Shown in pieces: positions 2,322 through 26,196 of a stretch of DNA of 35,586 nucleotides. This DNA is from Clostridium sp. DSM 17811 (GTDB lineage Bacteria; Bacillota; Clostridia; Clostridiales; Clostridiaceae). The stretch covers positions 1 to 35,586 of the forward strand of contig NZ_JAHLDU010000033.1 in the NCBI RefSeq assembly GCF_018861905.1. Reading direction: 5' to 3'. The stretch's first letter is position 1, and each line of letters starts with the position of its first letter. The position numbers and the translations under genes were made by a program. The notes beneath the pieces were generated by a model that saw only the letters and a program-made list of their open reading frames with translations, searched no databases and was not told the origin of the DNA.

Positions 2322-2921
2322 TTACATTTCATATTCTTTTATATATCTATATAATGTCGCTTTGCTTACGCTCAATAATTTTGCAAATTCAACTCCGGTT
2401 ATTTCTTTATCTTTCCACTTACTATAATACTTCTTGAAGTCTTCTGGTAAAATTCTATTAGGTCTACCCAACTTAATGCCTTTAGCCTTAGCATTCTTTA
2501 ATCCCTCTATAACTCTACCCTGTATTTTCTCCCGCTCCTTATCAGCTATATAAGACAAGAAATTAATAAGCATATTGTTTATCGTATAATCTAATTTGGT
2601 GTCTCCTGTGCTTACTAATGGCGTATCAAGTATTATTACTTTTATATTTCTCTCAAAGAAATATTGCAGTTCCTTTGGTGTATCCATGAAGTTACGTCCT
2701 AACCTATCAAGTTCTTTTATTATAATTGTATCTCCTATTTTAACTATTTCTTTTAATGCTTTATACTGTAATCTTTCGAAATCTTTACCACTTGCTCTAT
2801 CTTCAAATACGATTTTGTATTTTAGCTTATTTGAAGTAGCATACTCTTTTAAGGCTTCATGTTGACGATCTGTATTTTGCTCTTTGGTGCTAACCCTAAT
2901 ATAAGCATATACACTATTCAC
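2322..2921 (-). CDS. Serine recombinase (resolvase/invertase family)
   Basis: A 199-residue small serine recombinase that cuts and rejoins DNA through a serine nucleophile. The catalytic box YIRVSTKEQNTDRQ places the nucleophile at about Ser11, with Arg9 before it. The middle carries the family's ELDRLGRNFMD motif, then a LINFLSYIADKEREKI helix. A helix-turn-helix at about 155-195 (VEFAKLLSVSKATLYRYIKE) binds the crossover site. A TTG start at 2939 is possible, but the GTG at 2921 follows GGGGAG at the right distance, so I prefer it. It stands alone. Its target may be a resolution or inversion site of the surrounding element. It resembles the recombinase at 20448-21026 but is clearly diverged. 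Confidence 0.9.
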   Translation of the reverse strand: MNSVYAYIRVSTKEQNTDRQHEALKEYATSNKLKYKIVFEDRASGKDFERLQYKALKEIVKIGDTIIIKELDRLGRNFMDTPKELQYFFERNIKVIILDTPLVSTGDTKLDYTINNMLINFLSYIADKEREKIQGRVIEGLKNAKAKGIKLGRPNRILPEDFKKYYSKWKDKEITGVEFAKLLSVSKATLYRYIKEYEM

Positions 2922-3106
2922 GCTTACAACTCCCCACAAATTATTTGTTGTTTAATTTATTACTAATAATATCATAAAACCTACGAAACCGTATGATACA
3001 CTTTTGCAATCAATTGAGTGGGTTTATAGAGGATATTATCTGTCTTTTTCATAGTATCATTTAACTAATGTTATTGTATACGCTTATACGTTCCCACCTT
3101 TGTTAC

Positions 3107-3135: not shown

Positions 3136-3195
3136 AAGTATTTATGGTAAACTATATTTAAATAAATACTAAATTTAAAATAGAGGATGATACTA

Positions 3196-4380
3196 ATGAG
3201 TAATACTAATTATGAAGTAAACCAAAAACTAAAACATTTAACAGAAGATGAACTAAATGAGTTAATGATAAGATATTATAATAATGAAAAGATAACTTCA
3301 CTAATAGAAGAGTATAAAATTAATACAATTCCAAGTCAACTATGTTTACTGTTTCCACCAGAGATATGCGATGATACATTTTGTCCAAATTGTAATATAG
3401 CTATGATAATAGAACGAAAATCTAGAACTTCGTCTTCATCAAAGCGAAACCCAAAATGCTCTGTATGTGGTCATAGTGAAACTACTAACTGTAGGTGTGA
3501 TTCATGTTCAGAAAGAAGAAAAGAAGCACAGCTTAAAGAAATTACGCAGAAAAAGGAAATGGAACTAAAGAAGAGACAAGTAATTAATGAAGTTTTTGAA
3601 TTACACGATATTGTACCTATTGAAATGGCTGATTTAACATTTAGAGACAGATTGTACATAGGGTCTTTATTAAGACTAAGCTTATCAGAGGATATGCAGT
3701 ATATTGAAGCAGTAGGTAAGGCAAAACGTGAATTATCACCTACAGAAGATCTAATGGAAGAAATTATACAATCATTGAAATCAAAAAATATAATTGTTAT
3801 ACACCCAAATTCAGACATTGGAGCATTTGTTGACGAAGAAGATGTTGATTTTCCTTATACGTATTATAGGTATTCTGTTAATTATTATTTGAATGTTGGA
3901 AAATCTTCACAAAGAGATACAGTTTTGAAATACCTAATGAACCCACCTGATATTGATATCATCAGTAATATAATGGTGGCTTCAATTTGGAAGGAAATAG
4001 CCCTTGCTGAATGTCTTCAGTACTTAAAGTATCAGATGGAAAAAGTGCATTTTAGTTTTAATCCCGGAGAAAAAACAATTTCTATCTTTGATGATCTTTT
4101 AAATGAATTTTCGACTTCTCAAGTTTTTGGAATTATATATAAAGGTATTACAAGTTCAACAAGATATTATCAAGAAAATAAGGTTAGTAGACAGCAGGCA
4201 GCTAATTCTGTTATTGGAGCTTGTCAAAGATATGCTGAAAGAGCCATAATTAATAATTGGGATATTTTAAAATACAGCAGAATTATTGATCTTCCTCAGA
4301 CAGTTATTAGTGAGTTTTTCTTTAATAAATTGCTTAAAATCGGTGATGAAGGATTTAATTCTATCCCTAGAAAACTTTAA
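3196..4380 (+). CDS. Zinc-ribbon protein of unknown function
   Basis: I do not recognise this 394-residue protein. Near the N-terminus it has a cysteine cluster: C63-x2-C66, C88-x2-C91 followed by GH, then C99-x-C101-x2-C104. This should bind one or two zinc ions. A basic, Glu/Lys-rich helical stretch follows (about 105-135). The rest (about 140-394) looks mainly helical and has no motif I know. An ATG at 3187 is open, but the GAGG at 3183-3186 is spaced for the ATG at 3196. The gene converges on the PLD-NUMOD nuclease gene, with 38 bp between their stop codons. A nucleic-acid-binding role is plausible from the cysteines; anything further would be a guess. Confidence 0.75.
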   Translation: MSNTNYEVNQKLKHLTEDELNELMIRYYNNEKITSLIEEYKINTIPSQLCLLFPPEICDDTFCPNCNIAMIIERKSRTSSSSKRNPKCSVCGHSETTNCRCDSCSERRKEAQLKEITQKKEMELKKRQVINEVFELHDIVPIEMADLTFRDRLYIGSLLRLSLSEDMQYIEAVGKAKRELSPTEDLMEEIIQSLKSKNIIVIHPNSDIGAFVDEEDVDFPYTYYRYSVNYYLNVGKSSQRDTVLKYLMNPPDIDIISNIMVASIWKEIALAECLQYLKYQMEKVHFSFNPGEKTISIFDDLLNEFSTSQVFGIIYKGITSSTRYYQENKVSRQQAANSVIGACQRYAERAIINNWDILKYSRIIDLPQTVISEFFFNKLLKIGDEGFNSIPRKL

Positions 4381-4418
4381 CGAATATAACTATAAGTTTA
4401 TTCTAAGCTATAAAACTA

Positions 4419-5894
4419 TTACTTTATATGTTCATTCACATAATCATACTCATATCTAAATATAGTCTTGTTTTTTTGATAATAATATTTTTTTTGGGAA
4501 CTATAAATATCTTCAACAGTTATTCCTCCAAGAAATTTGATGTTTTTGTCATTAATAAGCCGTAGGGCATCTTTTCTTGTTACAACATCATCATAGGAGA
4601 GATGGTTGCTGCTATTGCATATATACTGTTTAGACTTATAATATTCACCCTCAAATTCATAAAAAACACTTTTCTTGGATGCTATTATATCAACAATCAT
4701 TGCATCACCTATTTTTATATTAAACACACTCTCATAATAGTCTTTTATATCTTCAACAGATTTACCAACAGGCTCATCTTCAATTAATTTTTTATTTAAA
4801 CTCTTTTGAAAATAGTCTGCAAAATAGACATACTCTTCACCACTGTTTGAAATTATTTTAAAAAAGGAGCAACCCATTCTTTTATATTGGCTAATCAATG
4901 CTGAAATAGCTCTAAAACTCATTTTTCTTTTTTCCTTAATTATCGTTGTACCTTCAAATATTTTTGTTAATTCAGATAAAAGTCTATCAATTTCCTCCTT
5001 TGTCATCATTCTATAATCTTCTTCAAATCGCCATATCTTTTTCTTATAATGGGTTTTAATCTCTCTGCATACATCGCTGATATACCCATATCCACGTGTA
5101 GAATTGTATATTGTTTTTGAAGCCTCTTTCATTGAGCTATATTTGATTCCTGTATTAAGGCAAACAACAGGTTTTGATAACTCATTCCTCATCGCTTCCG
5201 CTTGTGCCATCTTACCCTCTTCAGATAACGGGGTATGTTTCCTTCCTATATTTCCCTCTGAAATTTTTCTTTTATGTTCCTCTGATAACGGCGGCCTATG
5301 GCTCATCTCATCTTTATTTTCTTCTCCGCCATCAGTTCCATCTTCATTTTGTGATTCTTCATACAAACTATCTTTTAACGCCTTAGCAATACTATTATCA
5401 ATTTTAAAAGCATCATTCTGATGATTAACAATAATGTTTCTGAACTTTTCTAACTTTTCAGGTGTTAATAACTTTGCTGTGCCCCAGTATTCTTCAAACA
5501 AACTATCTAAACCATCAAAACACTCGTCCTCCTTATCAATACCAATATTAATTCTGCGATTATTCTTCAATCCTCCATTAGTGAAATTGCTTGAACCTAC
5601 AATAATAAGAGATTTATTCAAAATATAAATTTTAGAATGAAAATGCTGATCAATATAAAATTTTATAGTAACATTATCACAATGTAGAATTTTTTCTAGA
5701 GCACTAGGCGATGTTACAACGCATAAACGCACAATTAATCTTATATTGCATTTGTTTTTGATAAGGGTATCTAAAAATGCGTTTTCAGTAAAAAATGGAG
5801 TGGCTATAGAAGCCCATTTACTGTACCAAAACTTATTAAGAGTATCAATAAGATAATCTCCTTTGTCTTTTGAATTTGTAATTAGCAATTTCAT
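4419..5894 (-). CDS. PLD-type nuclease fused to NUMOD3 and NUMOD1 modules
   Basis: A 491-residue protein. Residues about 1-145 form a single HKD (phospholipase D) nuclease domain: H86-x-K88, then G100-S101-S102-N103 in VGSSNFTNGG. The usual Asp between them is replaced by Asn93. An acidic linker (about 175-197, EDGTDGGEENKDE) leads to two NUMOD3-like repeats (PLSEEHKRKISEGNIGRK and HTPLSEEGKMAQAEAM, about 200-235). A NUMOD1-like DNA-binding module follows at about 241-290 (KPVVCLNTG...SMKEASKTI...IWRF). The last 200 residues are unrecognised. NUMOD modules are known DNA-binding add-ons of GIY-YIG and HNH homing endonucleases, so this may be a site-specific DNA nuclease. Single-HKD enzymes usually act as dimers. 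The ATG at 5894 is chosen over the TTG at 5909 because GGGG lies just upstream of it. Confidence 0.8.
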   Translation of the reverse strand: MKLLITNSKDKGDYLIDTLNKFWYSKWASIATPFFTENAFLDTLIKNKCNIRLIVRLCVVTSPSALEKILHCDNVTIKFYIDQHFHSKIYILNKSLIIVGSSNFTNGGLKNNRRINIGIDKEDECFDGLDSLFEEYWGTAKLLTPEKLEKFRNIIVNHQNDAFKIDNSIAKALKDSLYEESQNEDGTDGGEENKDEMSHRPPLSEEHKRKISEGNIGRKHTPLSEEGKMAQAEAMRNELSKPVVCLNTGIKYSSMKEASKTIYNSTRGYGYISDVCREIKTHYKKKIWRFEEDYRMMTKEEIDRLLSELTKIFEGTTIIKEKRKMSFRAISALISQYKRMGCSFFKIISNSGEEYVYFADYFQKSLNKKLIEDEPVGKSVEDIKDYYESVFNIKIGDAMIVDIIASKKSVFYEFEGEYYKSKQYICNSSNHLSYDDVVTRKDALRLINDKNIKFLGGITVEDIYSSQKKYYYQKNKTIFRYEYDYVNEHIK

Positions 5895-6051
5895 TGCATT
5901 TCGCCCCAATTTTTTTAACTCATTTCCAAATTGTTTAAAATTGTAGTATTATAATTACTTACATTTTAAGTTATTGTGAAATATAAAAAAATATAACATA
6001 AACATTAAAAATTCAGTACAGTATATCATATATTACATATTATGTATCACA

Positions 6052-6524
6052 TTATTAAATCCTTTATTTATATCACTTTTTATGCTTAAATATCGTACGA
6101 TGATAGTATTATCTATTTTTAGTGGCATGAGGCAAGGAGACCTAACAGCCTTAACCTGGAGTGACATCGACCTTGAAAATTTTACTATAAACATTGATAA
6201 TTCATTACAACACTTACCTGGTAGAGAAACTTTCACAAAAGTACTAAAACTAAAACAATGAGATTAATCTCCGTTCCAGTTTCAGTAATAGAACTATTAA
6301 AAAAATATAAACTGTGGCAATCAGAGGAAAAACTAAATTTAGGTGAATTATGGCATAAAGAAAACTCTTTTTTATTTACCACATATGATGGCAAAGCTAT
6401 TTTCTTAAGTACAATCAGCAAATGGTTTTTAATTTTCCTTAGAAAACATAACGAGTTAATAACCAAAGATGATAAAATCTCAGATAAAGAAAAATACTTA
6501 CTTCCTGAAGTTAACTTCCATGGA
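6052..6524 (+). pseudogene. Tyrosine integrase, N-terminal part of the catalytic domain (broken)
   Basis: This is a fragment of a phage-type tyrosine recombinase. The frame at 6052-6260 reads KYRTMIVLSIFSGMRQGDLT, with the first catalytic Arg in SGMRQGDLTALTWSDIDLEN. Around the AAAA run at 6237-6240 it shifts into another frame, which continues TKTMRLISVPVSVIELLKKY and later FTTYDGK and LPEVNFHG. The core-binding domain and start codon are missing upstream. At 6524, exactly after the codons for HG of the HGLRHT box, the reading breaks off; it resumes at 7873. It was probably the integrase of an older element in the same tRNA-Arg site. Confidence 0.8.
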
Positions 6525-6531
6525 TCAAGAG

Positions 6532-6598
6532 ATTATGGTGAGTGTAGTACATTATACTTCTTGTTAACAGTATAATATCTTAAATCACTCACCATAAT
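6532..6598. repeat. Nested inverted repeats at the left end of the RIT remnant
   Basis: ATTATGGTGAGTG (6532-6544) pairs perfectly with CACTCACCATAAT (6586-6598). Inside it, ATTATACT (6551-6558) pairs with AGTATAAT (6569-6576). The structure sits immediately inside the inferred insertion point and just downstream of the last recombinase gene. Confidence 0.7.
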
Positions 6599-6659
6599 AT
6601 CAACAACTTTAAAACTACTCACACAAGGAATTCAATCAGTTCATCAAATCACCATCTTC

Positions 6660-7636
6660 TTACCACCTCGGAATAATATCCGGAACTAAATTAGTATATG
6701 CAGTTTCAATTGCCTTTCTTTTCATTCCGCTATCTGCTCTTGCATATATTTCGGTTGTAGAACAGTCTACATGTCCCAGGAAATCACGTATATAAATTAG
6801 GTTTACTCCGGACTGTATCAGGTGCATTGATTTAGCATGGCGAAGCACATGTGGTGTCACAGCTAATTTTACTGCAAATAAAGGATTATCCTTCGCCATT
6901 TCCACATATTTATTTAAAATATATAAAATTCCCCACTGGGATAGTTTCTGTTTTTTTTGTTTACGAAAATATAATTATTTGCCTTTGCAATTCCAGGATG
7001 ATACTTTTTTATATCTAGATATCTTGTTAGTAGTTCCGATGTTTTACCCATAAGTGGAACCTGCCTCACTTTTCTATGTTTTCCATAAAGTGTTATAACC
7101 ACAGGTGACGAAACACGAATGTCTTTGACTTTAATGTCCGTAAGTTCTTGCACCCTTGCACCGGTATCGTATAACACACAAAATAGCACCATATCACGGA
7201 AGCCTTCGTAATTAGAACAATCTGGTTGGTTTAATAGGATTTTCATTTTTGGGCCGGTCAGGTATGAAATCATTGGCTTAGGATGTTTCTTGCTTGGGAT
7301 GGAAAGACTTTTATGGAGTTCATACAGATTCTCTAGTGATTCTTTCAGTACATACCGTAATAAAGAATGAAATACAGCTAGTCTCTGGTTACGTGTGGAA
7401 ATAGCACATCATCTTTTTTTCTCAAGCCAGTCTAGATAGTTAATAATCAATTCTGTCGTCATGTGAGACATCCGTATTCTTTCGGGGTGCATTGATTTCT
7501 CTTCTTCACAGAATATCAGAAACAGTTTTAATGTATCTCTGTAAGAAGCTATTGTGTGTCTACTGGCATTTTTCTGGCCGGGGAGGTATTTTGAAAAAAA
7601 ATATGACAGGTACTTGGGGAAATCAGCTTCCTTCAT
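6660..7636 (-). pseudogene. RIT-type tyrosine recombinase, third-gene type (nonsense and frameshift)
   Basis: Once about 325 residues, this recombinase starts at 7636 (MKEADFPKYLSYFF) with GGAGG at 7645-7649. The N-terminal core-binding part runs to LDWLEKKR. An in-frame TGA at 7409-7411 then replaces what is probably a Gly codon before CAISTRNQRL. The catalytic domain follows, with Arg in YDTGARVQELTDIKV, and the frame shifts at a run of eight A (plus-strand T run near 6951-6958). The end carries VTPHVLRHAKSMHLIQSG, IRDFLGH and the nucleophile region STTEIYARAD. All the catalytic boxes can be read across the lesions, so this is recent decay. Its start is one base after the stop of the preceding recombinase, which implies translational coupling. 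Confidence 0.8.
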
Positions 7637-7637
7637 G

Positions 7638-7872
7638 TTATATACCTCCTTTTGGAATGACGTAATTGAACGCGGCTTCTGTACTACTGATGATGTTAGG
7701 ATATAAATCACCTGTTAGCCTCAGATAATACTGAGTACCTCTGAAATCGGAATGTCCCATATATGCAGCAAGGTAAGGTAGTATATTTGTAAGTTCTTCT
7801 CCTGCCATAACCCAGCGTTTAATGCATTTAACAGCAAAATTATGTCTTAATAAATCCAAACGTTTAGATTTA
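7638..7872 (-). pseudogene. RIT-type tyrosine recombinase, C-terminal fragment
   Basis: Only the last third of a tyrosine recombinase remains. It has LRHNFAVKCIKRWVMAGEEL, then ILPYLAAYMGHSDFRGTQYY with the LGH-like box and the Tyr region. This pattern (FAV...RW...AG...LP.L..Y.GH) is typical of the Tn554/RIT class. The coding frame runs on into the palindrome at 7843-7878, where the gene is cut at its LLRH box. Its TAA stop at 7638-7640 lies one base before the next recombinase's start. Confidence 0.75.
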
Positions 7873-7878
7873 CTAAGA
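7843..7878. repeat. 36-bp imperfect palindrome at the right junction
   Basis: The two 18-base arms (7843-7860 and 7861-7878) match at 16 of 18 positions with no loop. Both strands encode the same peptide, KRLDLLRH. On the minus strand it belongs to the RIT recombinase fragment; on the plus strand it runs into the resumed integrase. Confidence 0.75.
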
Positions 7879-8070
7879 CACACCTACGCTACCATATTGA
7901 TTAGCCAAAATGTAGATGTAAGTACAGTATCTAAAAGACTTGGTCATGCTAGAACTTCGACAACTATGGATATATATAGTCACAGCCTACAAAGATCAGA
8001 TTCAGCAGCAGCATATAAACTTGAAAATCTATTTAATAAAAAAGAACGAAATAAAAAGCAGGGATTATAA
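7873..8070 (+). pseudogene. Tyrosine integrase, C-terminal part
   Basis: The reading resumes in a new frame with LRHTYATILISQNVDVSTV, then SKRLGHARTSTTMDIYSHSL. These supply the catalytic Arg/His boxes and the Tyr nucleophile missing from the fragment at 6052-6524. The C-terminus is normal (LENLFNKKERNKKQGL). The stop lies inside a terminator hairpin, and the gene ends 150 bp from the tRNA-Arg copy at 8220. That position suits an integrase next to its attachment site. Confidence 0.8.
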
Positions 8071-8083
8071 AAATCTCTGCTTT
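8055..8083 (+). terminator. Terminator of the broken integrase
   Basis: A 12-bp stem with one G-T pair (8055-8066 with 8072-8083) overlaps the stop codon and is followed by TTTC and AT-rich sequence. Confidence 0.65.
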
Positions 8084-8170
8084 CTTATCGTATTCTATAG
8101 TAATCTTTTGTGTTTTATTGTATCAATAAACACCAAATAAACGCCAATTTAATGTTTGTCATGTTATACA

Positions 8171-8208
8171 AAAAAAGTGATAGGCACCTCAAACCTTTGA
8201 GATGCCTA
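8171..8208 (-). terminator. Likely ancestral terminator of tRNA-Arg
   Basis: A 13-bp stem with one mismatch (8181-8193 with 8196-8208) has a two-base loop. On the minus strand it is followed by a run of seven T. It lies just beyond the tRNA 3' copy, where the tRNA gene's own terminator would have been before the island inserted. Confidence 0.65.
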
Positions 8209-8219
8209 CATTCGTCATG

Positions 8220-8262
8220 GTGCGTCGGACAGGAGTCGAACCTGCGACCAACTGGTTCGTAG
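8220..8262 (-). repeat. Distal attachment site: 43-bp copy of the tRNA-Arg 3' part
   Basis: These 43 bases are identical to 24799-24841. They cover the tRNA-Arg sequence from the anticodon loop (CTACGAA on the minus strand) through the T arm and acceptor 3' strand to the discriminator base plus one base. The tRNA 5' half is absent. With the intact gene at the other end, this is the classic trace of a tyrosine-integrase island in a tRNA gene. Confidence 0.92.
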
Positions 8263-8461
8263 GCAATACGTCAATATATATCGCCATTGTATATTTATAC
8301 ATTATAACAGAATAAATATACATTAACAGTCCTGTTTTATACCCATTAATGTATAAAAACAGCATTTACAATACCAATTCGGTATATAATATGCTATTTT
8401 TGTTTGCCACTGTTTGCCAATAACGCAAATAAACTTTATTAAATATTCTATTTGTCTCGAT
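8263..8461. other. Island left-end region with inverted repeats and arm-type motifs
   Basis: There is no gene here. A 10-bp perfect inverted repeat (8317-8326 with 8346-8355) encloses AACAG/CTGTT (8325-8329 with 8332-8336). Two TTTGCCA copies lie at 8403-8409 and 8413-8419, ten bases apart. Related TTGCCA copies occur at the other end (24509, 24529 and 24541), so these may be integrase arm-binding sites. Confidence 0.5.
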
Positions 8462-10066
8462 TTACCTTATGCCTTCAAGAATTGAATCTATGTGTTCAGA
8501 TAATGTTTCGCCACCTTTATGCAAGTCTTCCTTATTCATATTTGCATATATGCGTGTTACCATTTTTCCGTCATTATCTCCCATTAACATTTGTACAGTC
8601 TTCAAATTAATATTCTTTCTAAAACATTCTGTACAAAAACTATGTCTAAACTTGTATAAATTGTATTCACTTACATTTAATCCATGCTTTTTCAAAAGTC
8701 TTTCATATACTTGACTGTAATCACTATATTTCCACATTTGACCTTTACTTCCGCAAAATAAAAATTCTTCTGTTCCATTTTTACATTTCATCTGCATTAG
8801 TTTAGTATTTCCTTTTACTTCCTCTTCCCAATTTTTAAGTATACTCAATAAATTTTTACCAATTTTAAGTTTACGAATTTGAAATTCAGACTCTCCTCTA
8901 TCACGTACATTCTTTAAATCTGTAATTATTGCAATAGATACTCCTTTTCTCTTTTGAGATGCAACATCATGTTTTATCTCATGACTTAGAGTCCTTTCAA
9001 TGTTTAGCATGCCACTTTCATAATCAACGTCGCTGAATTTTAACGCCAATCCTTCTGAGGGTCTTAATCCTAAATACATTAAGATGTTTACCCAAACATG
9101 CATCATATTATTTTCTTTTATAATTTCAGAAATCTTTGTATATTCCTCCCTCTTAAATGCTAAATTTTTCTTATCTTTATATGCCTTAGATCTTGGTTTC
9201 TTTACTTCCTCCATTAAACCCTTTGTAATTATTTCTCCCCCACCCAAACTCGAAGCATACCTAATTATTACACTCAAAATATCATAAATCTTATTAATCG
9301 AGCTTTGACTAAAAGGTTTAGATTTCCCACCCTTTCCATAGTTCTTTTGGGTTAATGAATTAATAAATTTACTTAGTTTAAAACAGTCAATTTCGCACAT
9401 TTTATAATTCCCTAAAGCTTCAGTAATATGACGAGATGCATTTACTTTTGTATCAAAGGTTCTTGAACTATCTCTACCATCTATACTTTCTAAATATTCA
9501 GTAATATAATCTTTAAAACACATCTCCGCTTTAGGATGTTTTGGTTCTTTGACAAAAGCAGAATAAATAACCGGTGCTGTCTCTTCCACAGGTAAAACTT
9601 TATTTTCACATTGAAATTCACCATGTTTTACCCATAATTCTTGTTGTGTATCAGCGGTTATTACCTTTCTCATACGTTTATGGTTTTCATCATAACCAAG
9701 GCTTAAAGCCATACACCATTTTTTCCTTTGTTCATTCCAATAAGCCTTTATTTCTTTAACTCCTGCTTTTTCCATTATTACCCACTCCTCATCACTCAAA
9801 TCTTTAATCTCATTTGAATTGGTATGAGGGTAACGCTGATAGCCAATTAAATCAATAGGTCTTTCTTCATTTTCTACTAATGCAATTTCTCCATTAATAA
9901 ATCTACTCAAGTCTACAAATTTTACTAGTTCCTTTTTACTACCCACAGCAGTTAGCTCTCCACAATCTATAAGGTCTTTTACCTGCTCAATATCAGCTCC
10001 AAGCTTTTCAGCAGTCTCCTTTAATGTGTACATTAATTTTCTTTTACTTTCTTTAATAAGTTCCAT
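8462..10066 (-). CDS. Island tyrosine integrase
   Basis: A 534-residue site-specific recombinase, long for its family. Residues about 12-58 look like an excisionase- or MerR-like helix-turn-helix (YTLKETAEKLGADIEQVKDL). A poorly defined segment (about 60-175) with an AP2-like stretch KWCMALSLGYDENHKRMRKV follows, then a core-binding domain (about 180-290) and the catalytic domain (about 300-525). Arg335 (YLGLRPSEGLAL) and Arg474 (YKFRHSF) are in place, and Tyr507 (RIYANM) is the nucleophile. The first His of HxxR is Tyr471, and the LGH box is LMGD, variants I recall in clostridial integrases. The ATG at 10066 has AAAGGA upstream. Its position beside the distal att copy marks it as the enzyme that inserted this island. 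Confidence 0.93.
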   Translation of the reverse strand: MELIKESKRKLMYTLKETAEKLGADIEQVKDLIDCGELTAVGSKKELVKFVDLSRFINGEIALVENEERPIDLIGYQRYPHTNSNEIKDLSDEEWVIMEKAGVKEIKAYWNEQRKKWCMALSLGYDENHKRMRKVITADTQQELWVKHGEFQCENKVLPVEETAPVIYSAFVKEPKHPKAEMCFKDYITEYLESIDGRDSSRTFDTKVNASRHITEALGNYKMCEIDCFKLSKFINSLTQKNYGKGGKSKPFSQSSINKIYDILSVIIRYASSLGGGEIITKGLMEEVKKPRSKAYKDKKNLAFKREEYTKISEIIKENNMMHVWVNILMYLGLRPSEGLALKFSDVDYESGMLNIERTLSHEIKHDVASQKRKGVSIAIITDLKNVRDRGESEFQIRKLKIGKNLLSILKNWEEEVKGNTKLMQMKCKNGTEEFLFCGSKGQMWKYSDYSQVYERLLKKHGLNVSEYNLYKFRHSFCTECFRKNINLKTVQMLMGDNDGKMVTRIYANMNKEDLHKGGETLSEHIDSILEGIR

Positions 10067-16349: not shown

Positions 16350-18275
16350 TTATTTAGTTTTTATTTTTAATAGCAAATTATCATCTTCTAGCGTCAAAAA
16401 TACATACTTTTTAAAACTCTCTGGATAAGTACCTGTCCCAGTTGTTAAAATTATTTGAAATAATGTACTTGGGTCACTTCTTAGCTCATATGCTTTTGAG
16501 AGTTGTTCTAAATTTTTAATTAAATTTATCTTATCAATTCCTTCTTTATTGGGAGTATCTATCATTAGGAACCTCGGATAATTTACGTTATTTTTTAAAC
16601 TCATGATAAGCATTGTTAAAAAGAACATTAAACGTTTAGGTACTGATGCACTTCTTTCTCTATAAGAATTCATATTAATGTGAGGCATATAATCATCACC
16701 AACATATGCTGCATAACAATTCTTATCTGCATTTTCCATCAAATCAAGATAAATTTCACTAAATATCTTTTTCTTTACTAACATATCTTCTCTAGCTGAA
16801 CTTAAATATGAATCAACTTTAATTTTTAATCCATCAATTTGATTCCTTAATTTGGTTACCTCAACAGCTATGTTTTCTCTTTTCTGTGCTAATTCCTCTG
16901 CTTTTCTATATTCAATAATGTTTGAGTTGATCTCACAAATCCTATCATCTATTTTTTTTACATATGCTGAATTATAGTCTGATGTAATATCTTTTGCTAA
17001 ATCCTGAATAAAAGAACGTACGCCATTAATCTTATGGTTGTATTCTTCTAATTCATTCAATATCATCTGCAACCTTTTATTTTTCTTATTAAGCAATCCA
17101 CTTAACGATTGTATTGCCTTTTTTTTAACCTTTAATATTTCTAAATATTCCTGATCTGTGTAAAAAAATTTTTCATATTGCTCTTCATCTATTTCGCATC
17201 CACATATACATTTATCCTTATCTCTTATTACTTCCCTTAGACAGTAAGGGCATGTATTTGGTGTAAATAACTTTAGCTTTTTGTTTACAAAACGAATTTT
17301 CTCTATTTCATACAGCTCTTTTTCAGACCCATCAATAAGATATAATATTTTCTCTGTTGATTGCTCTACTGATGACCTAGCATGAATAAGCTCTTCCATA
17401 TTACCCTGCAATTGATTTAATTTTCGTCTTTCAAAATCTATTTCTTTTAAAATTTCACTAGCATTACTTTCTTCACTTCTTGCTATATCTCGTTCTATGG
17501 TGACCTTCGTAAGCATTTCTTCATTTTCATTTATAATTGTTTTAATATGAGCTACATTTCCTAATTCCTCATTTAATATTTCTGCTAAAAATTCATTGTA
17601 ACTATCCATTACAGCTTCTTTCTTCTCATACTCTTTTAACTTAATCTTATATTTTCCAAGTACAGAATAATAGTCATTGTAAATCTCACCTAATAGCACT
17701 TCAAAAATAGCCTTTCTAATTTCTAATGAATCTGAGAGGAAATTTTCATTATCCGGAATCTTATATATTTTGTCTACCTCAGTAGCTTGATCATGGTATA
17801 TCAATCGCATTAAATCTGTCATATTTAATTTAAATTTCTTAGTTCCCTGAACAATGTCAAATACATCTACTCCCAATACTTCTAGTATCCAATCAGAAAA
17901 TACTGTAGTATCCCCATTACTTTTATTCCTATAAACACAAGTTTCTATTACCTTTTTTTCTGAATCTACAATATAAATTGAACTATCCCCTATGGATCGA
18001 GTCAATTCATAATTTTTGTCATTGATAGTTACCTCTAATTCAACATAATTATCGACATCATAATATATTTCATTATGCTTATTTTCTGCCTCTTTATCCC
18101 TTTTATTGAACCCTGAAACTTTGCCTCCTAATCCATAATAAATAAGGTTCATGAACGTACTTTTACCTTGACCATTTTCTCCTTCCAAAACAATTATTCC
18201 ATCATTTAAATAAGGAGATTCAAAGTAATATTTTTGACCGTTATAAGCAACCCTTCTAATTGCTAATCTTCCCAT
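16350..18275 (-). CDS. ABC-3C system ATPase (SMC/Rad50-like, zinc-hook-like)
   Basis: A 641-residue ABC ATPase of the SMC/Rad50 kind. Walker A is G32-ENGQGKS-T40. A coiled coil runs about 205-335, then a cysteine cluster C342-x2-C345 and C356-x-C358-x-C360 that resembles a zinc hook, and a second coil about 375-510. Walker B is at 569-575 (FLMIDTP). The signature region is probably around SVPKRLMFFLTML (545-557). It overlaps the preceding gene by 13 bp, so translation is probably coupled. In ABC-three-component systems (a predicted class of conflict systems described by Aravind and colleagues) such an ATPase works with a middle component and an effector. DNA or phage-structure sensing is the expected role. 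Confidence 0.88.
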   Translation of the reverse strand: MGRLAIRRVAYNGQKYYFESPYLNDGIIVLEGENGQGKSTFMNLIYYGLGGKVSGFNKRDKEAENKHNEIYYDVDNYVELEVTINDKNYELTRSIGDSSIYIVDSEKKVIETCVYRNKSNGDTTVFSDWILEVLGVDVFDIVQGTKKFKLNMTDLMRLIYHDQATEVDKIYKIPDNENFLSDSLEIRKAIFEVLLGEIYNDYYSVLGKYKIKLKEYEKKEAVMDSYNEFLAEILNEELGNVAHIKTIINENEEMLTKVTIERDIARSEESNASEILKEIDFERRKLNQLQGNMEELIHARSSVEQSTEKILYLIDGSEKELYEIEKIRFVNKKLKLFTPNTCPYCLREVIRDKDKCICGCEIDEEQYEKFFYTDQEYLEILKVKKKAIQSLSGLLNKKNKRLQMILNELEEYNHKINGVRSFIQDLAKDITSDYNSAYVKKIDDRICEINSNIIEYRKAEELAQKRENIAVEVTKLRNQIDGLKIKVDSYLSSAREDMLVKKKIFSEIYLDLMENADKNCYAAYVGDDYMPHINMNSYRERSASVPKRLMFFLTMLIMSLKNNVNYPRFLMIDTPNKEGIDKINLIKNLEQLSKAYELRSDPSTLFQIILTTGTGTYPESFKKYVFLTLEDDNLLLKIKTK

Positions 18276-18781
18276 TTTGTAACCTCACTATATCCTAATA
18301 TTTTTGTTTGCAGAGTTTCTATTTTAAGAACCTTAAGTCCTCGTATATTTTTTTTAAGCTCCAATGCAGCATCTACATCCTTTTTAATCGAATCATCCAT
18401 AAATATTTCTTCTGTTTTTTCATTATGTAACATCATTACATCTATATTCCCAGATTTTATATTCTTTTGCAAAGAGACGATTTCTTGTTTTTCCAGAAAA
18501 AAAAGGACTCTTTTTATTATAGAAACATCCATTTTTGAATCACAAAATAATTTTACTGCTTTCTCATTTTCAAATATATCTAATTCATCTTGTTTAATTA
18601 ATTTTCTAAACAATTTCATATTTCTATCATCTTTAATAAATTCAAATATAAGTCCTAATTTCCTATAGTCAGAAAAAGGCTTTTTATAGCATTCCAAAGC
18701 TTTAAAAATGGCTAATAGTTTTATAGTGATAAAATAATAATCTTCCTCTAATATAAACATCATTCTTTTTTTACTATCCAC
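18263..18781 (-). CDS. ABC-3C system middle component
   Basis: A 172-residue protein between effector and ATPase genes. It has no enzyme motif. It is helical and charged throughout (for example RNMKLFRKLIKQDELDIFEN), with a possible winged-helix segment at about 80-110 (VSIIKRVLFFLEKQEIVSLQ). Size and position match the middle components of ABC-three-component systems, which probably link the ATPase to the effector. The start is a GTG at 18781, directly after the effector's TAA, with a GGGGGGTGG ribosome binding site inside the effector gene. Its 3' end overlaps the ATPase start by 13 bp. The call rests mainly on context. Confidence 0.75.
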   Translation of the reverse strand: MDSKKRMMFILEEDYYFITIKLLAIFKALECYKKPFSDYRKLGLIFEFIKDDRNMKLFRKLIKQDELDIFENEKAVKLFCDSKMDVSIIKRVLFFLEKQEIVSLQKNIKSGNIDVMMLHNEKTEEIFMDDSIKKDVDAALELKKNIRGLKVLKIETLQTKILGYSEVTKWED

Positions 18782-20032
18782 TTAAGCCACCCCCCCTTTA
18801 TCTAATGCTAAAAAACAATCCTGAAACAAAATAATTATTGTTTTTTTTACCATATCTCTATCTAAGTAAGGTTCCTTATATGTTTTTGCTTTATCATTAA
18901 TGACTCTCTCTGCTTCATCAGCTAATTGCTCAAATATACCCTCTACTTCTTCTTGTAAAAACTTTCCTTGTTTCTCTTTTATAACTCTATTAACTATTCT
19001 CTTACATACTTTATAAATTCGATAATTATATGCCTTAACTTCCTTTATTTCAACATATCGTTGTTGCTCGTAAATTCCTTCAACATAATCATCTTCTAAT
19101 TCTTGTATTATATCCTCATCAAATTCAGGACAAACTGTATATATTTTTTCTTGTAAGTTTCGTACATCATCGCATTTAATTTGATCCCACTTTGGATACA
19201 GTGGATCCAATCTTTCTTCTACTTTTACTTTTCTTATAAATTCAAAGAAAATAATTTTAACTTCCGAAACATGCACAATTTTCATCAAGAAATCTTTTTC
19301 TAGTGCTCTTGATTCAATCATGTCAAGTAAACAGGCAATAATCTTATCACAGAATTTAATGTCAGTATTATATCTTATGCATAATTCCATAACATATTCT
19401 TTAATTCTACCTCTAATTTCTTGCTCAGTTTCCTCACCGAAACGCCATTCAATTAAATTAAAAAACAGCTCCCATTCATCATTTGTTATGCCCTCAATTA
19501 ACTTTTCATAGTAAGAGTTATCACCATTTGAATGTTTCTTATGCTGTTGAATATAATAATCTTTAAACACCGGCAATGCAAATGGAAATGCTTTGTCATA
19601 TTTCTTTTCTATTAAAAGTTGTAATATAGACTCTGTAGGTAATGGTTCTGAAATTTCTTTTAATACTCCAACTTTCTTTTCCTTAGCAACTTTTGTATTA
19701 GTATAAAAAACAAATACTATATTTTCAGATTGTTCAACCTTTCTCCAGTTATCAAAAAAAATACGCAATGAATTTTTAATTTCTTCACTATTTATTGAAA
19801 AAGGGGTACTATATACTTTATTTTGCTCTGTTATGTATTTCGTTATATCTGATCCCATATCTATTTCAAGAACATCATCTATATGTTCTATAGTACAATA
19901 AATGCTTTTTCTGTCCTCTAATAAAGCTTTAATTAACCGCTCTACAGCTCTCATTTTTTGCAAACCTATACCTTTTATACTTGCTTCTGCATCAGTATTA
20001 ATTTCTTTATTACCATTAAGAGGTTTTTTCAT
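18782..20032 (-). CDS. ABC-3C effector: predicted PD-(D/E)xK-type nuclease
   Basis: A 416-residue protein. The N-terminal 100 residues look like a restriction-endonuclease fold close to the DUF4297/Cap4 and Mrr type: a helix with Arg/Glu (KMRAVERLIKALLED), then E49-H-I-D52-D53, then Q70-x-K72 in ITEQNKVYSTPFS, and a closing helix ending FFDNW. The remaining 300 residues are helical and acidic and fit the C-terminal region shared by ABC-3C effectors. The ATG at 20032 has GGGGAG seven bases upstream and is preferred over 20068. It is the first gene of a tight three-gene operon. It should cut nucleic acid when the ATPase module senses infection; that function is inferred from family and context. 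Confidence 0.75.
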   Translation of the reverse strand: MKKPLNGNKEINTDAEASIKGIGLQKMRAVERLIKALLEDRKSIYCTIEHIDDVLEIDMGSDITKYITEQNKVYSTPFSINSEEIKNSLRIFFDNWRKVEQSENIVFVFYTNTKVAKEKKVGVLKEISEPLPTESILQLLIEKKYDKAFPFALPVFKDYYIQQHKKHSNGDNSYYEKLIEGITNDEWELFFNLIEWRFGEETEQEIRGRIKEYVMELCIRYNTDIKFCDKIIACLLDMIESRALEKDFLMKIVHVSEVKIIFFEFIRKVKVEERLDPLYPKWDQIKCDDVRNLQEKIYTVCPEFDEDIIQELEDDYVEGIYEQQRYVEIKEVKAYNYRIYKVCKRIVNRVIKEKQGKFLQEEVEGIFEQLADEAERVINDKAKTYKEPYLDRDMVKKTIIILFQDCFLALDKGGVA

Positions 20033-20447
20033 GATTTTCTCCCCTGTCAGAAATATTAAGTTTGCCATTAAACATTTAACTCTTTAACTCTACTTTACCA
20101 CTTACATATTGCGTGATATAAGACAAAACTTAACATTATAATACCACATTATCTACTGAATTCAAATCCCTCCCTCATGCTAATATCTAGATTTCTAATA
20201 GTATAATAAGCAAGCTTTTAAAATACTAATACTCTTTTTCTAACTATATCTGTAAATCTAATAGACTTTCCTATATATATATCTATTTTTCTTAGTTTAC
20301 ACTTGTAGATATCTCCATGTTGTTCTTTAAGTTAATATCTACTAAAAACATATTTATATAAACGTAAAGGGACAGTATTTAGCTGTCCCTTTATAACAAT
20401 ACTATGCTATTTTTGAGAATTTAGTAATTCTATATGTTTATTTATAA
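20033..20447. other. Upstream region of the ABC-3C operon
   Basis: There is no gene. A -10-like TATAAT on the minus strand lies at 20140-20135, but its -35 is weak (TTGAAT at 19 bases). A strong terminator at 20366-20392 separates this operon from the serine recombinase. Confidence 0.45.
20366..20392 (-). terminator. Terminator of the serine recombinase gene
   Basis: A perfect 10-bp stem (20366-20375 with 20383-20392) with a 7-base loop, rich in G and C for this genome, 56 bases past the stop codon. Confidence 0.75.
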
Positions 20448-22347: not shown

Positions 22348-23712
22348 TCAATAATAATTATACCACAAAACTTCCATTCTTCCGTTGCCCTTTATTCCAC
22401 CTACGCCAGTTGTTGTGTCAACCTGTACACTCCTCCAACCATTATCGGCATTAAGATATTTATTGTATAATTCTGTATTATAGTTACTAACAAGCATCTT
22501 ACATTTTCCCTTATATATCGTTTTCAAAAAAATTTCGTGGTCTTCATAAGTAAAAGAATCTTTATATATTTCACCTAAGTTTTTCTTTTCATCCTCTGGT
22601 TTTAAATAACTTGGATCAAAATAAATCATTGCCCTCTCATCATTTAAATAAGGACATTTCAACACATATAATAATGCCCCTACTTGACTTACATGTACGC
22701 CTTCTAATCTCTCTGCAACATCATAGAGCCTACTAATAGCCCTATGATAATCGTCTGTAGATTTATATTTAACAGCACTCCAATCCTTTGCCATCCCATC
22801 CCTGCTTTGAGAATAAATGACATAAGTTGCAACTGCTAAATCCATATCGCCAATACTTACATTATCATGATTGTTCGAAGTCTCTGAATAAGCAATTTTT
22901 TTAGCTCGCATATGTACTTTTTCCTCGTATTGTTTTAATCTATTTTTATTCATACTCGTCAATGTCATATTAAGAACGTCTAATAATTTTTTTTCTAACT
23001 TCTCTATTTTTTTATAAAAGTCTAATTTATCATTTTGACTACTCATTAAAGTCTTTGATTTATCTAAGTAAACCGCTATTTCTTTCTTGACCTCTTTAAT
23101 AGTCATATGCTTGAATTCTTCAAAATATAGTATATACTGCTCTTCATATGCTGGTGAAAGTATTTTTTTATATATTATTATATAATCATCAAATAACCTT
23201 TTGAAGTTTCCGAGAATGTTTAATTCTTCAACTTTAAAATTAGTATCTTTTATAACCTTGTCATAACTTTTAGCTATTGCATCAATCCTTTTATAACGTA
23301 TATTATCCCTTAGTTTCTCCAAATCTTCTGAATAATATATAAAATTCAGTTGTTTTAAATATACCAATGCCTGCCTTTTCAACTCATCTATAAAATGATC
23401 TTCAGCCTCATTTCTTATCATCATATAATGATGAAATTCTTCAAGACTGTACTCTGTTCCATATATCCTGTTTATTAACTCATTAGCAGTGTCCTTATTA
23501 CTCATGACTCGCATAAAGGCACATAAACCTGCACTTGAGTCATTATAAATCTCGATTTTATGATGTGGTTTGTTAAAAAGCAAACGTGCCGCACCTCCAA
23601 ACGGTTCAATATACAAGTCCGTATTATTATAGTCGAGCATATCACTAATAAGAGATGCTAGTCTAGCTTTACCACCAAAATAAGGAAATGGGCTTAATGT
23701 TTTTAATGCCAT
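22348..23712 (-). CDS. Dam-type (D12 class) adenine-N6 DNA methyltransferase
   Basis: A 454-residue enzyme that should methylate adenine using S-adenosylmethionine. Motif I is at 8-15 (PFPYFGGK), followed by YIEPFGG at 34-40. The catalytic motif IV is D366-P-S-Y369 (IYFDPSYLKPED), a variant of DPPY. Between them lies an unusually long charged, coiled region (about 110-275) that makes it much longer than typical Dam (about 270-280 residues). Conserved FVSN-like (MLVSNYN, 406-412) and a C-terminal RMEVLWYN end complete the fold. It lies 12 bp downstream of an unknown gene in one operon. No restriction nuclease is recognisable nearby, so it may be an orphan or phage-derived enzyme, or part of an unusual defence pair. 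Confidence 0.9.
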   Translation of the reverse strand: MALKTLSPFPYFGGKARLASLISDMLDYNNTDLYIEPFGGAARLLFNKPHHKIEIYNDSSAGLCAFMRVMSNKDTANELINRIYGTEYSLEEFHHYMMIRNEAEDHFIDELKRQALVYLKQLNFIYYSEDLEKLRDNIRYKRIDAIAKSYDKVIKDTNFKVEELNILGNFKRLFDDYIIIYKKILSPAYEEQYILYFEEFKHMTIKEVKKEIAVYLDKSKTLMSSQNDKLDFYKKIEKLEKKLLDVLNMTLTSMNKNRLKQYEEKVHMRAKKIAYSETSNNHDNVSIGDMDLAVATYVIYSQSRDGMAKDWSAVKYKSTDDYHRAISRLYDVAERLEGVHVSQVGALLYVLKCPYLNDERAMIYFDPSYLKPEDEKKNLGEIYKDSFTYEDHEIFLKTIYKGKCKMLVSNYNTELYNKYLNADNGWRSVQVDTTTGVGGIKGNGRMEVLWYNYY

Positions 23713-23724
23713 AATCTCACCCTC

Positions 23725-24417
23725 CTATTCAATTGTACCAAATTTCTTTAAAATAGGTTCAGCAATAGACTCATGAATACTAACCATTTTTGTTTTTAAT
23801 CCATTTTCACTAACTACATAATCAAATTTGCCTTTATTTGAGTGTGTGTAATGTTTTTTTGATAACCCTTCCTTTATATCAGTATAATTATAATTTTTGA
23901 ATTTACTGTCTTTTAGTTCTTTATTGAAGTCCTTAAGTGGAATATGATAAAGCTTCAGCTCACCAATGGTTCTTCCCTCAATTACTTTTACTTCAATTTC
24001 ATCATCATTGTATATATACCTACATAACATTTCAAGGACTTCATCAGCTATATCGCCTGTAACCTCATAATCTATGCTTTCTGTTTCTTCAGGCTTAAAA
24101 TAATAATATTTGTCTACTATAAATTTACTAAGCTCTACAAATTTAGTTCTGCCCAATGCAACGCCATGAGACCTAAATGCTACAATTTCACTTTCTAGAT
24201 TCATTAAATTAGCCTTTATTTTCCCATAATCCTCACCTTGGACTTTAGCCGATATTTCTAACTGCTCCCTTTTAGAATTTTTATCTTTATATCGTTTAAC
24301 TTCAAACTCAAATAATCCAAGTAATTTTTCCTTCTTTATAGCATTTTCAGTAGCTATAATTTTATGTGTTTTTACTATTTCTTCATTATCCATTTGCCAA
24401 AGTCTAGTTGACTCCAT
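23725..24417 (-). CDS. Hypothetical protein, operon partner of the adenine methylase
   Basis: I do not recognise this 230-residue protein. It begins MESTRLWQMDNEEIVKTHKI. It has a helical first part (about 1-110, with a coiled stretch at YGKIKANLMNLESEIVAF) and a mixed alpha/beta second part rich in Lys, Glu and Tyr. No catalytic motif stands out. The frame is open back to 24468, but the ATG at 24417 follows GGGGG and is preferred. Its stop is 12 bp before the methylase start, and both share one terminator. It could be a specificity or antagonist protein, a restriction partner or an unrelated phage gene; the sequence alone does not decide. Confidence 0.65.
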   Translation of the reverse strand: MESTRLWQMDNEEIVKTHKIIATENAIKKEKLLGLFEFEVKRYKDKNSKREQLEISAKVQGEDYGKIKANLMNLESEIVAFRSHGVALGRTKFVELSKFIVDKYYYFKPEETESIDYEVTGDIADEVLEMLCRYIYNDDEIEVKVIEGRTIGELKLYHIPLKDFNKELKDSKFKNYNYTDIKEGLSKKHYTHSNKGKFDYVVSENGLKTKMVSIHESIAEPILKKFGTIE

Positions 24418-24664
24418 AATTATTCCCCCTATGTAGAACCATATAATATTATCCATAAATTTTAGCATATAACAAATAAGAAATCTATGTTATTAGCATT
24501 AAATTGGTTTGCCAAATAAGCACATGGATTGCCAATATGCTTGCCATCCCTTAAATTCTCCATAACTGCACCATTTTTAAGCTGACATACTGGCTATATA
24601 TAATATAAAATTTACTGCCATTTAAATACCTCAGAACACTATAATGCATAAATATTCAAATTAA

Positions 24665-24791: not shown

Positions 24792-24799
24792 TTATCAAG

Positions 24800-24873
24800 T
24801 GCGTCGGACAGGAGTCGAACCTGCGACCAACTGGTTCGTAGCCAGCTACTCTATCCAACTGAGCTACCAACGC
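24800..24873 (-). tRNA. tRNA-Arg(ACG)
   Basis: A full cloverleaf of 74 bases with discriminator A and no encoded CCA. The acceptor GCGTTGG pairs with CCGACGC. The anticodon loop CTACGAA reads ACG. The 3' part, from the anticodon loop on, is the attachment site used by the island and is repeated at 8220-8262. Integration kept the gene intact because the island brought an identical 3' part. Confidence 0.95.
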
Positions 24874-25562: not shown

Positions 25563-25653
25563 TGGTGGAGAAGGAGGGATTTGAACCCTCGCACCAGTTG
25601 CCCAGTCTATACCCTTAGCAGGGGCACCTCTTTAGCCACTTGAGTACTTCTCC
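25563..25653 (-). tRNA. tRNA-Ser(GCT), copy 1
   Basis: 91 bases with an encoded CCA and a long variable arm, as expected of tRNA-Ser. The acceptor GGAGAAG pairs with CTTCTCC and the anticodon is GCT. It is identical to the copy at 25990-26080. Confidence 0.94.
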
Positions 25654-25678
25654 AGGCTTAATATTGTGTTGTTAAAAA

Positions 25679-25769
25679 TGGTGGAGGAAGTGGGATTCGA
25701 ACCCACGGTACGCTTTCACGTACGTCGGTTTTCAAGACCGGTGCCTTAAACCAACTCGACCATCCCTCC
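25679..25769 (-). tRNA. tRNA-Ser(TGA), copy 1
   Basis: 91 bases with an encoded CCA and a long variable arm. The acceptor GGAGGGA pairs with TTCCTCC and the anticodon is TGA. It is upstream of tRNA-Ser(GCT) in the transcript, 25 bases apart. Confidence 0.94.
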
Positions 25770-25963
25770 ATGTCCTATGCGACAAGATTTATTATATCAG
25801 CATGTTTATATCATGTCAACATGTTTTTTAAATCTTATACCTATAATTATATTTCATTTTAAATTTATGAAACAATTTTCTTACTATTTACTCAAGATTT
25901 ATAATAGTATTACACAATATAACATATCCAACTATAGATATATTTTGTTATATAAAAAAAAGA

Positions 25964-25989
25964 AACATCTAACAAATGTTAAATGTTTC
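25964..25989 (-). terminator. Terminator abutting tRNA-Ser(GCT), copy 2
   Basis: AAACATCTAACA pairs with TGTTAAATGTTT, with one mismatch relative to copy 1, and adjoins the CCA of the second tRNA-Ser(GCT). Confidence 0.65.
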
Positions 25990-26080
25990 TGGTGGAGAAG
26001 GAGGGATTTGAACCCTCGCACCAGTTGCCCAGTCTATACCCTTAGCAGGGGCACCTCTTTAGCCACTTGAGTACTTCTCC
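25990..26080 (-). tRNA. tRNA-Ser(GCT), copy 2
   Basis: Identical to 25563-25653, offset by 427 bases. It is part of a duplicated two-tRNA block. Confidence 0.94.
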
Positions 26081-26105
26081 AGGCTTAATATTGTGTTGTT
26101 AAAAA

Positions 26106-26196
26106 TGGTGGAGGAAGTGGGATTCGAACCCACGGTACGCTTTCACGTACGTCGGTTTTCAAGACCGGTGCCTTAAACCAACTCGACCATCCCTCC
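26106..26196 (-). tRNA. tRNA-Ser(TGA), copy 2
   Basis: Identical to 25679-25769, offset by 427 bases, including the 25-base spacer to the neighbouring tRNA. Confidence 0.94.

Follow-up and report, generated by a model that had tools for sequence, protein, structure and literature searches.

A PLD-type nuclease domain joined to homing-endonuclease DNA-binding modules in a mobile island of Clostridium sp. DSM 17811

The stretch of DNA analysed here, 35,586 nucleotides on contig NZ_JAHLDU010000033.1 of Clostridium sp. DSM 17811 (hereafter the window), carries a gene which encodes a PLD-type nuclease domain followed by NUMOD-like modules (hereafter the PLD-NUMOD gene). This gene and the features around it are:

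2322..2939, minus strand: serine recombinase (resolvase), beyond the 397-aa gene; DNA similarity to genus genomes ends at about 3067-3087
3187..4380, plus strand: gene of a cysteine-bearing 397-aa protein, convergent with the PLD-NUMOD gene and 38 bp away on its downstream side
4419..5894, minus strand: PLD-NUMOD gene, 491 aa, ATG at 5894, no internal stops; an in-frame TTG at 5909 is a possible start
6088..8067, plus strand: interrupted tyrosine integrase with its N-terminal half missing, upstream of the PLD-NUMOD gene
6660-7711, minus strand: second set of integrase fragments, inside the truncated integrase
8220..8262: perfect 43-bp copy of the tRNA-Arg 3' end, the other copy lying at 24799-24841
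16350-20068, minus strand: Lamassu-like three-gene set, in the element next door
22348-23712, minus strand: D12-class adenine methyltransferase, in the neighbouring element, adjoining a 247-aa gene (23725-24468)

The plus strand across 4419-5894 is riddled with stops, and the codon score of the PLD-NUMOD gene (0.163) falls inside the range of 0.061-0.328 spanned by eight further genes of the window, of which two belong to the reference set. The GC fraction is 0.366 in the NUMOD part, 0.285 in the PLD part and 0.272 in the C-terminal part. The truncated integrase matches an intact relative at the DNA level over 6088-6359 and 7873-8265; this relative, in genome G002 (L121, 4592-5689), is open over 366 codons. 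The 43-bp tRNA-Arg repeat is likely an attachment site, and its two copies seem to bound an integrated element of about 16.5 kb with its own integrase (8462-10066, 534 aa). In the Lamassu-like set, PADLOC recognised LmuB-like (1.7e-53) and LmuA-like (4.9e-19) genes and gave no match for the 172-aa middle gene; the same tRNA-Arg-bounded element also carries a resolvase and a SprT-like protein. The D12 methyltransferase and the 247-aa gene are possibly a restriction-modification pair. No methylase was found among the ten (longer) ORFs scanned between 960 and 13922, the D12 enzyme being the nearest. Two tandem copies of a tRNA-Ser(gct)-tRNA-Ser(tga) pair lie at 25563-26196 (minus strand).

Relatives of the 397-aa gene were present in 3 of 97 other genomes (G036, G026 and G042), in differing settings. 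The G036 relative is 65% identical, is accompanied by a second partial copy and lies beside prophage-end-like genes, while that in G026 is near a serine recombinase (both by eye). DNA similarity to G036 stops at 4389, just short of the PLD-NUMOD gene, and no PLD or NUMOD profile was matched at E 1e-3 in 16-18 kb around the three relatives. We thus rejected the 397-aa gene as a partner; on these comparisons, it appears to move independently of the PLD-NUMOD gene.

No DNA match covering the PLD-NUMOD gene was obtained in 16 other genus genomes, with 17 candidates scored per genome. The recombinase, integrase, tRNA-Arg and Lamassu surroundings lead us to regard the gene as cargo of a mobile hotspot of mixed and partly defensive content. 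The initial annotation had proposed a new class of site-specific or mobile nuclease. This proposal is only partly supported: the gene does lie in a mobile island, but the Rfam gathering scan found no intron in the window, so that an intron setting was rejected, the genus DNA search identified no empty allelic site, and no second copy of the gene was found.

The encoded protein is divided as follows, all on the minus strand:

5484..5810: PLDc_2 domain (Pfam), residues 29-137
5631..5639: catalytic motif H86-x-K88, seen in the sequence
5586..5597: motif G100-S-S-N103, seen in the sequence
5553..5555: Arg114 (N+11), where relatives carry a conserved Glu
5295..5399: acidic linker, about residues 166-200
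5178..5288: two NUMOD3-like repeats, residues 203-239, with borders set by eye and the second degenerate (phrog_314, alignment A4)
4989..5177: NUMOD1-like module, residues 240-302 (alignment A4, predicted fold, profile A6)
4422..4988: orphan C-terminal region, residues 303-491, for which no convincing relatives were found

The presence of a PLD (HKD) domain with H86xK88 and GSSN, as annotated initially, was confirmed: Pfam PLDc_2 (PF13091) matches with E 5.3e-11 (42.9 bits, cut-off 27) and both motifs are in place. A profile of five relatives scored the domain at 138.7 bits, compared with 7.2 for the best of 2000 shuffles. NCBIfam gave only sub-cut-off matches for the protein, the best being DpdK, and PADLOC matched DrmC (1.1e-7) and DpdK (1.5e-4). 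When a profile of the window domain and five proteobacterial relatives was compared with solved structures, 19 matches were obtained, with SauUSI first (7clg, E 2.7e-14) and the Nuc endonuclease (1byr, E 3e-5) among them. Pfam recognised no ATPase in the protein.

Active sites were compared in 42 PLD ORFs from 42 loci, that is, the window protein and 41 relatives, many of which are of one SauUSI-like type, so the counts below are not independent. H86, K88, G100, S101 and N103 are invariant across the six rows of alignment A2. Attention had been drawn to Asn93 in place of the Asp of the HKD motif. The residue was read correctly, but this position (seven after the His) is Asp in only 9 of 41 relatives, Lys in 25 and others in the remainder; we thus rejected Asn93 as a notable active-site change. 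At the position 11 residues past the Asn of GSxN, Glu is present in all 41 relatives (40 by pattern; L071 by alignment, its pattern match falling at a spurious place) and in 5 of 5 close viral PLD relatives, one of which is from the same contig as L072 and was already counted. The window protein has Arg114, a change that the initial annotation did not pick up. In BfiI, the catalytic residues N125 and E136 show the same spacing as N103 and Arg114 (PMC4081073). Since Arg114 replaces a conserved Glu, catalysis by the window protein is doubtful, and the enzyme may have reduced activity or none. Across the wider superfamily the Glu is not invariant: Gln occupies the N+11 position in two remote PLD-like viral proteins. 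On viral contig L157 the PLD-like motif FHPKIYLTDN...GTQNLT, with Gln at N+11, is part of an open frame spanning 3577 codons or more, and L162 has a similar one. Our literature search for an E136 mutant of BfiI led only to the review PMC4081073.

Two NUMOD3-like repeats and a NUMOD1-like module had been read in the part following the PLD domain. Searched with the whole protein, Pfam gave no NUMOD at E up to 10; the segment alone gave one NUMOD3 copy (13.3 bits, E 0.082; cut-off 20.4) and no NUMOD1. A homing-endonuclease profile was nevertheless matched through PHROGs: one stretch, residues 185-301, spanning both the NUMOD3-like and NUMOD1-like parts, matched phrog_314 ('homing endonuclease') at E 2.6e-10. 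The GIY-YIG enzymes L073, L029, L046 and L078 match the same profile. A profile of nine other NUMOD segments, the window excluded, scored the window protein at 74.8 bits (best of 2000 segment shuffles, 12.9); because those nine segments were retrieved using the window sequence, it is the PHROGs match that serves as the independent test. By eye, the first NUMOD3-like repeat is clear and the second degenerate. The reading was upheld, though not at the level of the Pfam cut-offs. In alignment A4, the window segment is 28-38% identical to GIY-YIG/HNH enzymes.

The full-length AlphaFold model was of low confidence (pLDDT 52.5) and too poor for use, whereas residues 196-312 were modelled with a mean pLDDT of 82.9 from an alignment of 6 sequences. 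In this model, the NUMOD1-like module is predicted as a strand, two helices and a strand. A Foldseek search of the PDB with the 196-312 model placed I-HmuI first (E 0.004, probability 1.00, TM only 0.36/0.25), sCTP-23166 second (E 0.09, probability 1.00, TM 0.81 by target over 52 columns) and the DNA-binding domain of I-TevI third (E 1.2, probability 0.25). None of the 44 matches reached E 0.001, only sCTP-23166 among the top three had a high TM, and the likeness of fold over the whole length is weak. Compared with solved structures, profile A6 matched 1u3e (E 0.0012), 8b6e (0.0013) and 1i3j (1.1).

The partners of such segments were then surveyed in phages and viral contigs. With the 113-residue segment as query, tblastn at an E limit of 1 gave 13 phage records, the best at 0.04. 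Five carry the annotation intron-associated endonuclease 1, and one each HNH endonuclease, NUMOD3 protein and homing endonuclease; three are hypothetical and two lack a feature. When five phage records and one genome match were run against Pfam, 5 of the 6 passed the cut-off for NUMOD3 or NUMOD1; in the sixth (S-H34), GIY-YIG was found together with an I-HmuI NUMOD-like match below cut-off. Scanning viral contigs with residues 195-262 yielded 40 loci whose ORFs resemble, by eye, GIY-YIG, HNH or bare NUMOD repeats, and Pfam confirmed GIY-YIG in 4 of the 5 scanned; the other one is cut. Across the NUMOD loci inspected (40 viral by eye, 11 by Pfam), the partner was GIY-YIG, HNH or none recognisable.

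The region between the two homologous parts is acidic, with 12 D/E versus 5 K/R in residues 160-200. The linker of BfiI has been hypothesised to repress its nuclease, and the acidic linker of SauUSI might do likewise (PMC7913695). The final ~190 residues, left without assignment initially, found no convincing relative in genomes, phages, viral contigs, plasmids or the PDB. The C-terminal 196 residues gave matches in 24 of 206 family genomes at E 0.1, the window's own included, but these were scattered and the best other match was 0.0019. At 1e-4, the own genome was the only one among 391 class genomes; phages, viral contigs and plasmids gave no match, and the best value against the PDB was 0.54.

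Searches with the whole protein gave no match in genome contigs, viral contigs or phages. In plasmids, 128 records matched, none over 80% of the query, and among the best 20 listed the furthest residue reached was 192. In the samples of relatives', order and phylum genomes, which overlap, matches occurred in 23 of 148 relatives' genomes (window genome included) and 25 of 225 order genomes, confined to residues 2-226 except in the window gene itself; at E 1e-11, one of 358 phylum genomes matched, the window's own. Within the family, the NUMOD segment was found in 2 of 206 genomes, that of the window and G155. The G155 match (L029:1330-2115, minus strand) is a GIY-YIG/NUMOD3 homing-type endonuclease, and it adjoins an ORF that by eye resembles the start of an anaerobic ribonucleotide reductase. 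A Pfam NUMOD3 search found 7 places in 6 of 341 class genomes, the window genome not being among them.

These 7 places, the G155 match, 40 viral loci and 5 phage loci make up 53 NUMOD loci, several of them copies of one another. The NUMOD profile matched 58 ORFs (45 distinct) in them at E 1e-3, and the PLD profile matched 0 of their 2524 ORFs; L128 and L132 hold no ORF that this NUMOD profile matches. Approached from the PLD side, 0 of 41 relatives reached E 1e-3 against the NUMOD profile over the part covered (E 0.6 or worse; 25 are truncated 3' by the end of the locus), and the window ORF alone among the 42 does so. Alignment A3 retrieved one locus each from genome contigs and viral contigs, neither with a NUMOD match, and a 61-aa PLD piece gave no match in viral contigs. 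A fixed-codon PLD pattern returned 0 stretches, and two broader patterns returned 26 and 5, representing the 5 close PLD relatives, 2 remote PLD-like proteins and otherwise out-of-frame chance matches. No NUMOD was detected at E 0.1 in these 31 stretches, so that all five close viral PLD relatives are without one.

A full-text search of the PMC literature, with subscription papers outside its scope, did not find a PLD-NUMOD fusion; where the terms met in one text, PLD was a fragment of pLDDT or the terms belonged to separate proteins. Neither PLD nor phospholipase appears in the main text of a GIY-YIG survey (PMC1564403), and PLD is not among the six homing-endonuclease classes, plus an Endo VII class, set out in PMC6083498. 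The pairing of NUMODs with a PLD nuclease had been called unfamiliar at the outset, and indeed a second case was found neither among the 41 PLD relatives nor in the 53 NUMOD loci; in the collections searched, the predicted architecture is a singleton. As far as the sequence can tell, the joining of a PLD nuclease domain to homing-endonuclease DNA-binding modules in one protein is real.

Several known systems resemble parts of this protein. BfiI has an N-terminal PLD nuclease, acts as a dimer with one active site and carries a C-terminal B3-like recognition domain (PMC4081073). Like the window protein, BfiI/BmrI and the PLD-B3 R subunits of NgoAVII/CglI combine an N-terminal HxK PLD domain, a linker and a C-terminal DNA-binding region (PMC4081073, PMC7913695). 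The DNA-binding domain of the BfiI type is, however, B3-like and not NUMOD; BfiI keeps the catalytic E136 where the window protein has Arg, and no cognate methylase was found near the window gene. SauUSI-type PLD-helicases provide the closest solved PLD domain by profile (7clg) and share the acidic linker, but in SauUSI the reader (TRD) sits at the far C-terminus behind an ATPase (PMC7913695), which Pfam does not find in the window protein. The window's genome and its relatives also hold open frames of about 1000 aa that, by eye, begin with PLD and contain helicase-like motifs. PLD-wH fusion endonucleases join a PLD nuclease to a small DNA-binding domain, as here, and show that PLD cores swap readers; their reader is a winged helix for Gm6ATC, whereas that of the window protein would be NUMOD (PMC11037411). 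Since BfiI, NgoAVII and PLD-wH already pair PLD with C-terminal DNA-recognition domains, we consider the window protein a variation on a known layout and not a new class.

On the homing side, I-TevI, I-HmuI and their phage relatives have the NUMOD3/NUMOD1 tail in common with the window protein, but the core of these enzymes is GIY-YIG or HNH, not PLD, and those inspected by eye lack the orphan C-terminal tail. The nearest proteins found are stand-alone PLD proteins of ~422-437 aa from plasmids of proteobacteria and from viral contigs, with 32-41% identity in the PLD domain (within residues 1-159). They keep the Glu, and their C-terminal ~260 residues form a different shared region without NUMODs; one matches phrog_28026. 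The genes for two such proteins of 423 aa (L072:3032-4303 and L022:5911-7182) follow a CI/S24-type repressor gene, in regions that look like prophages. Sites of this kind in prophages often carry superinfection or defence genes.

The explanation we favour, tentatively and with slightly less than even confidence, is a BfiI-like modular PLD nuclease which has borrowed a NUMOD targeting tail and serves conflict between mobile elements. The two homologous parts, their order, the charge of the linker and the mobile setting are observed; dimerisation, DNA binding, cleavage, autoinhibition and the role of the protein are inferred. In such a nuclease, the PLD domains of two chains would dimerise, with the paired HxK motifs forming one metal-independent active site, and the acidic linker would restrain it. 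The NUMOD3-NUMOD3-NUMOD1 tail would recognise particular DNA sites and carry the nuclease to them. Competing DNA might be attacked without a partner methylase, a role in inter-element conflict being the most likely. A targeted PLD nuclease is suggested by the BfiI-like order of parts, the acidic linker and the known ability of PLD cores to swap readers. The BfiI-like reading is further favoured because the NUMOD segment matches a homing-endonuclease profile and resembles the fold of these enzymes, and because the island holds integrases, recombinases and a duplicated tRNA-Arg end, with a Lamassu-like set nearby. It is weakened by Arg114, the orphan C-terminal region and the lack of a homologue of the same architecture in our searches, and also by the unpassed Pfam NUMOD models and fold matches that are weak over the whole length.

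A rival account is a true homing endonuclease with a new, PLD-type core, which would cut gene-less alleles and be copied in by repair, its C-terminal region helping to bind a long target. Homing is possible for a protein of this composition, given that the NUMOD loci examined hold GIY-YIG, HNH or no recognisable partner and that the adjoining integrase has lost its N-terminal half; the island location also fits, as most bacterial GIY-YIG homing-type enzymes are in or near mobile elements (PMC1564403). We nevertheless consider this account rather unlikely: the window lacks an Rfam intron, the genus search identified no empty-site allele and no gene-covering match in the 16 other genomes, and Arg114 may impair cutting. 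Arg114 is also the main argument for a dead or weak PLD relic, now decaying or acting as a NUMOD DNA-binding protein (a repressor, or a shield of its own target), since Glu is found there in 41 of 41 relatives and 5 of 5 close viral ones. A dead enzyme is a serious rival, though we judge it unlikely: H86, K88, S101 and N103 are all retained, no stop breaks the 491-codon frame, its codon score lies in the range of eight other window genes, and the two remote viral proteins have Gln in place of Glu. An artefact, either a chimeric assembly or a chance likeness to NUMODs, could account for a singleton that passes no Pfam NUMOD model and whose NUMOD part is higher in GC than its neighbours; the PHROGs E-value, the shuffle control, the fold match, the in-frame fusion and an acidic linker of the type described in other PLD nucleases make it very improbable. 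With Arg114, full catalytic activity of the protein is uncertain. The most far-reaching possibility, a first homing or homing-derived site-directed nuclease with a metal-independent PLD core whose active site works without the usual Glu, seems to us improbable.

GIY-YIG and HNH homing endonucleases use NUMOD tails as exchangeable targeting parts. A NUMOD tail on a PLD core would show that this module also pairs with a metal-independent nuclease cutting via a covalent intermediate, and homing endonucleases would be tied to PLD restriction and defence nucleases. Arg114 poses a concrete, testable question, namely whether a PLD site without the Glu still cuts. Should the homing reading be true instead, the protein would add a further catalytic class to the selfish site-specific nucleases.
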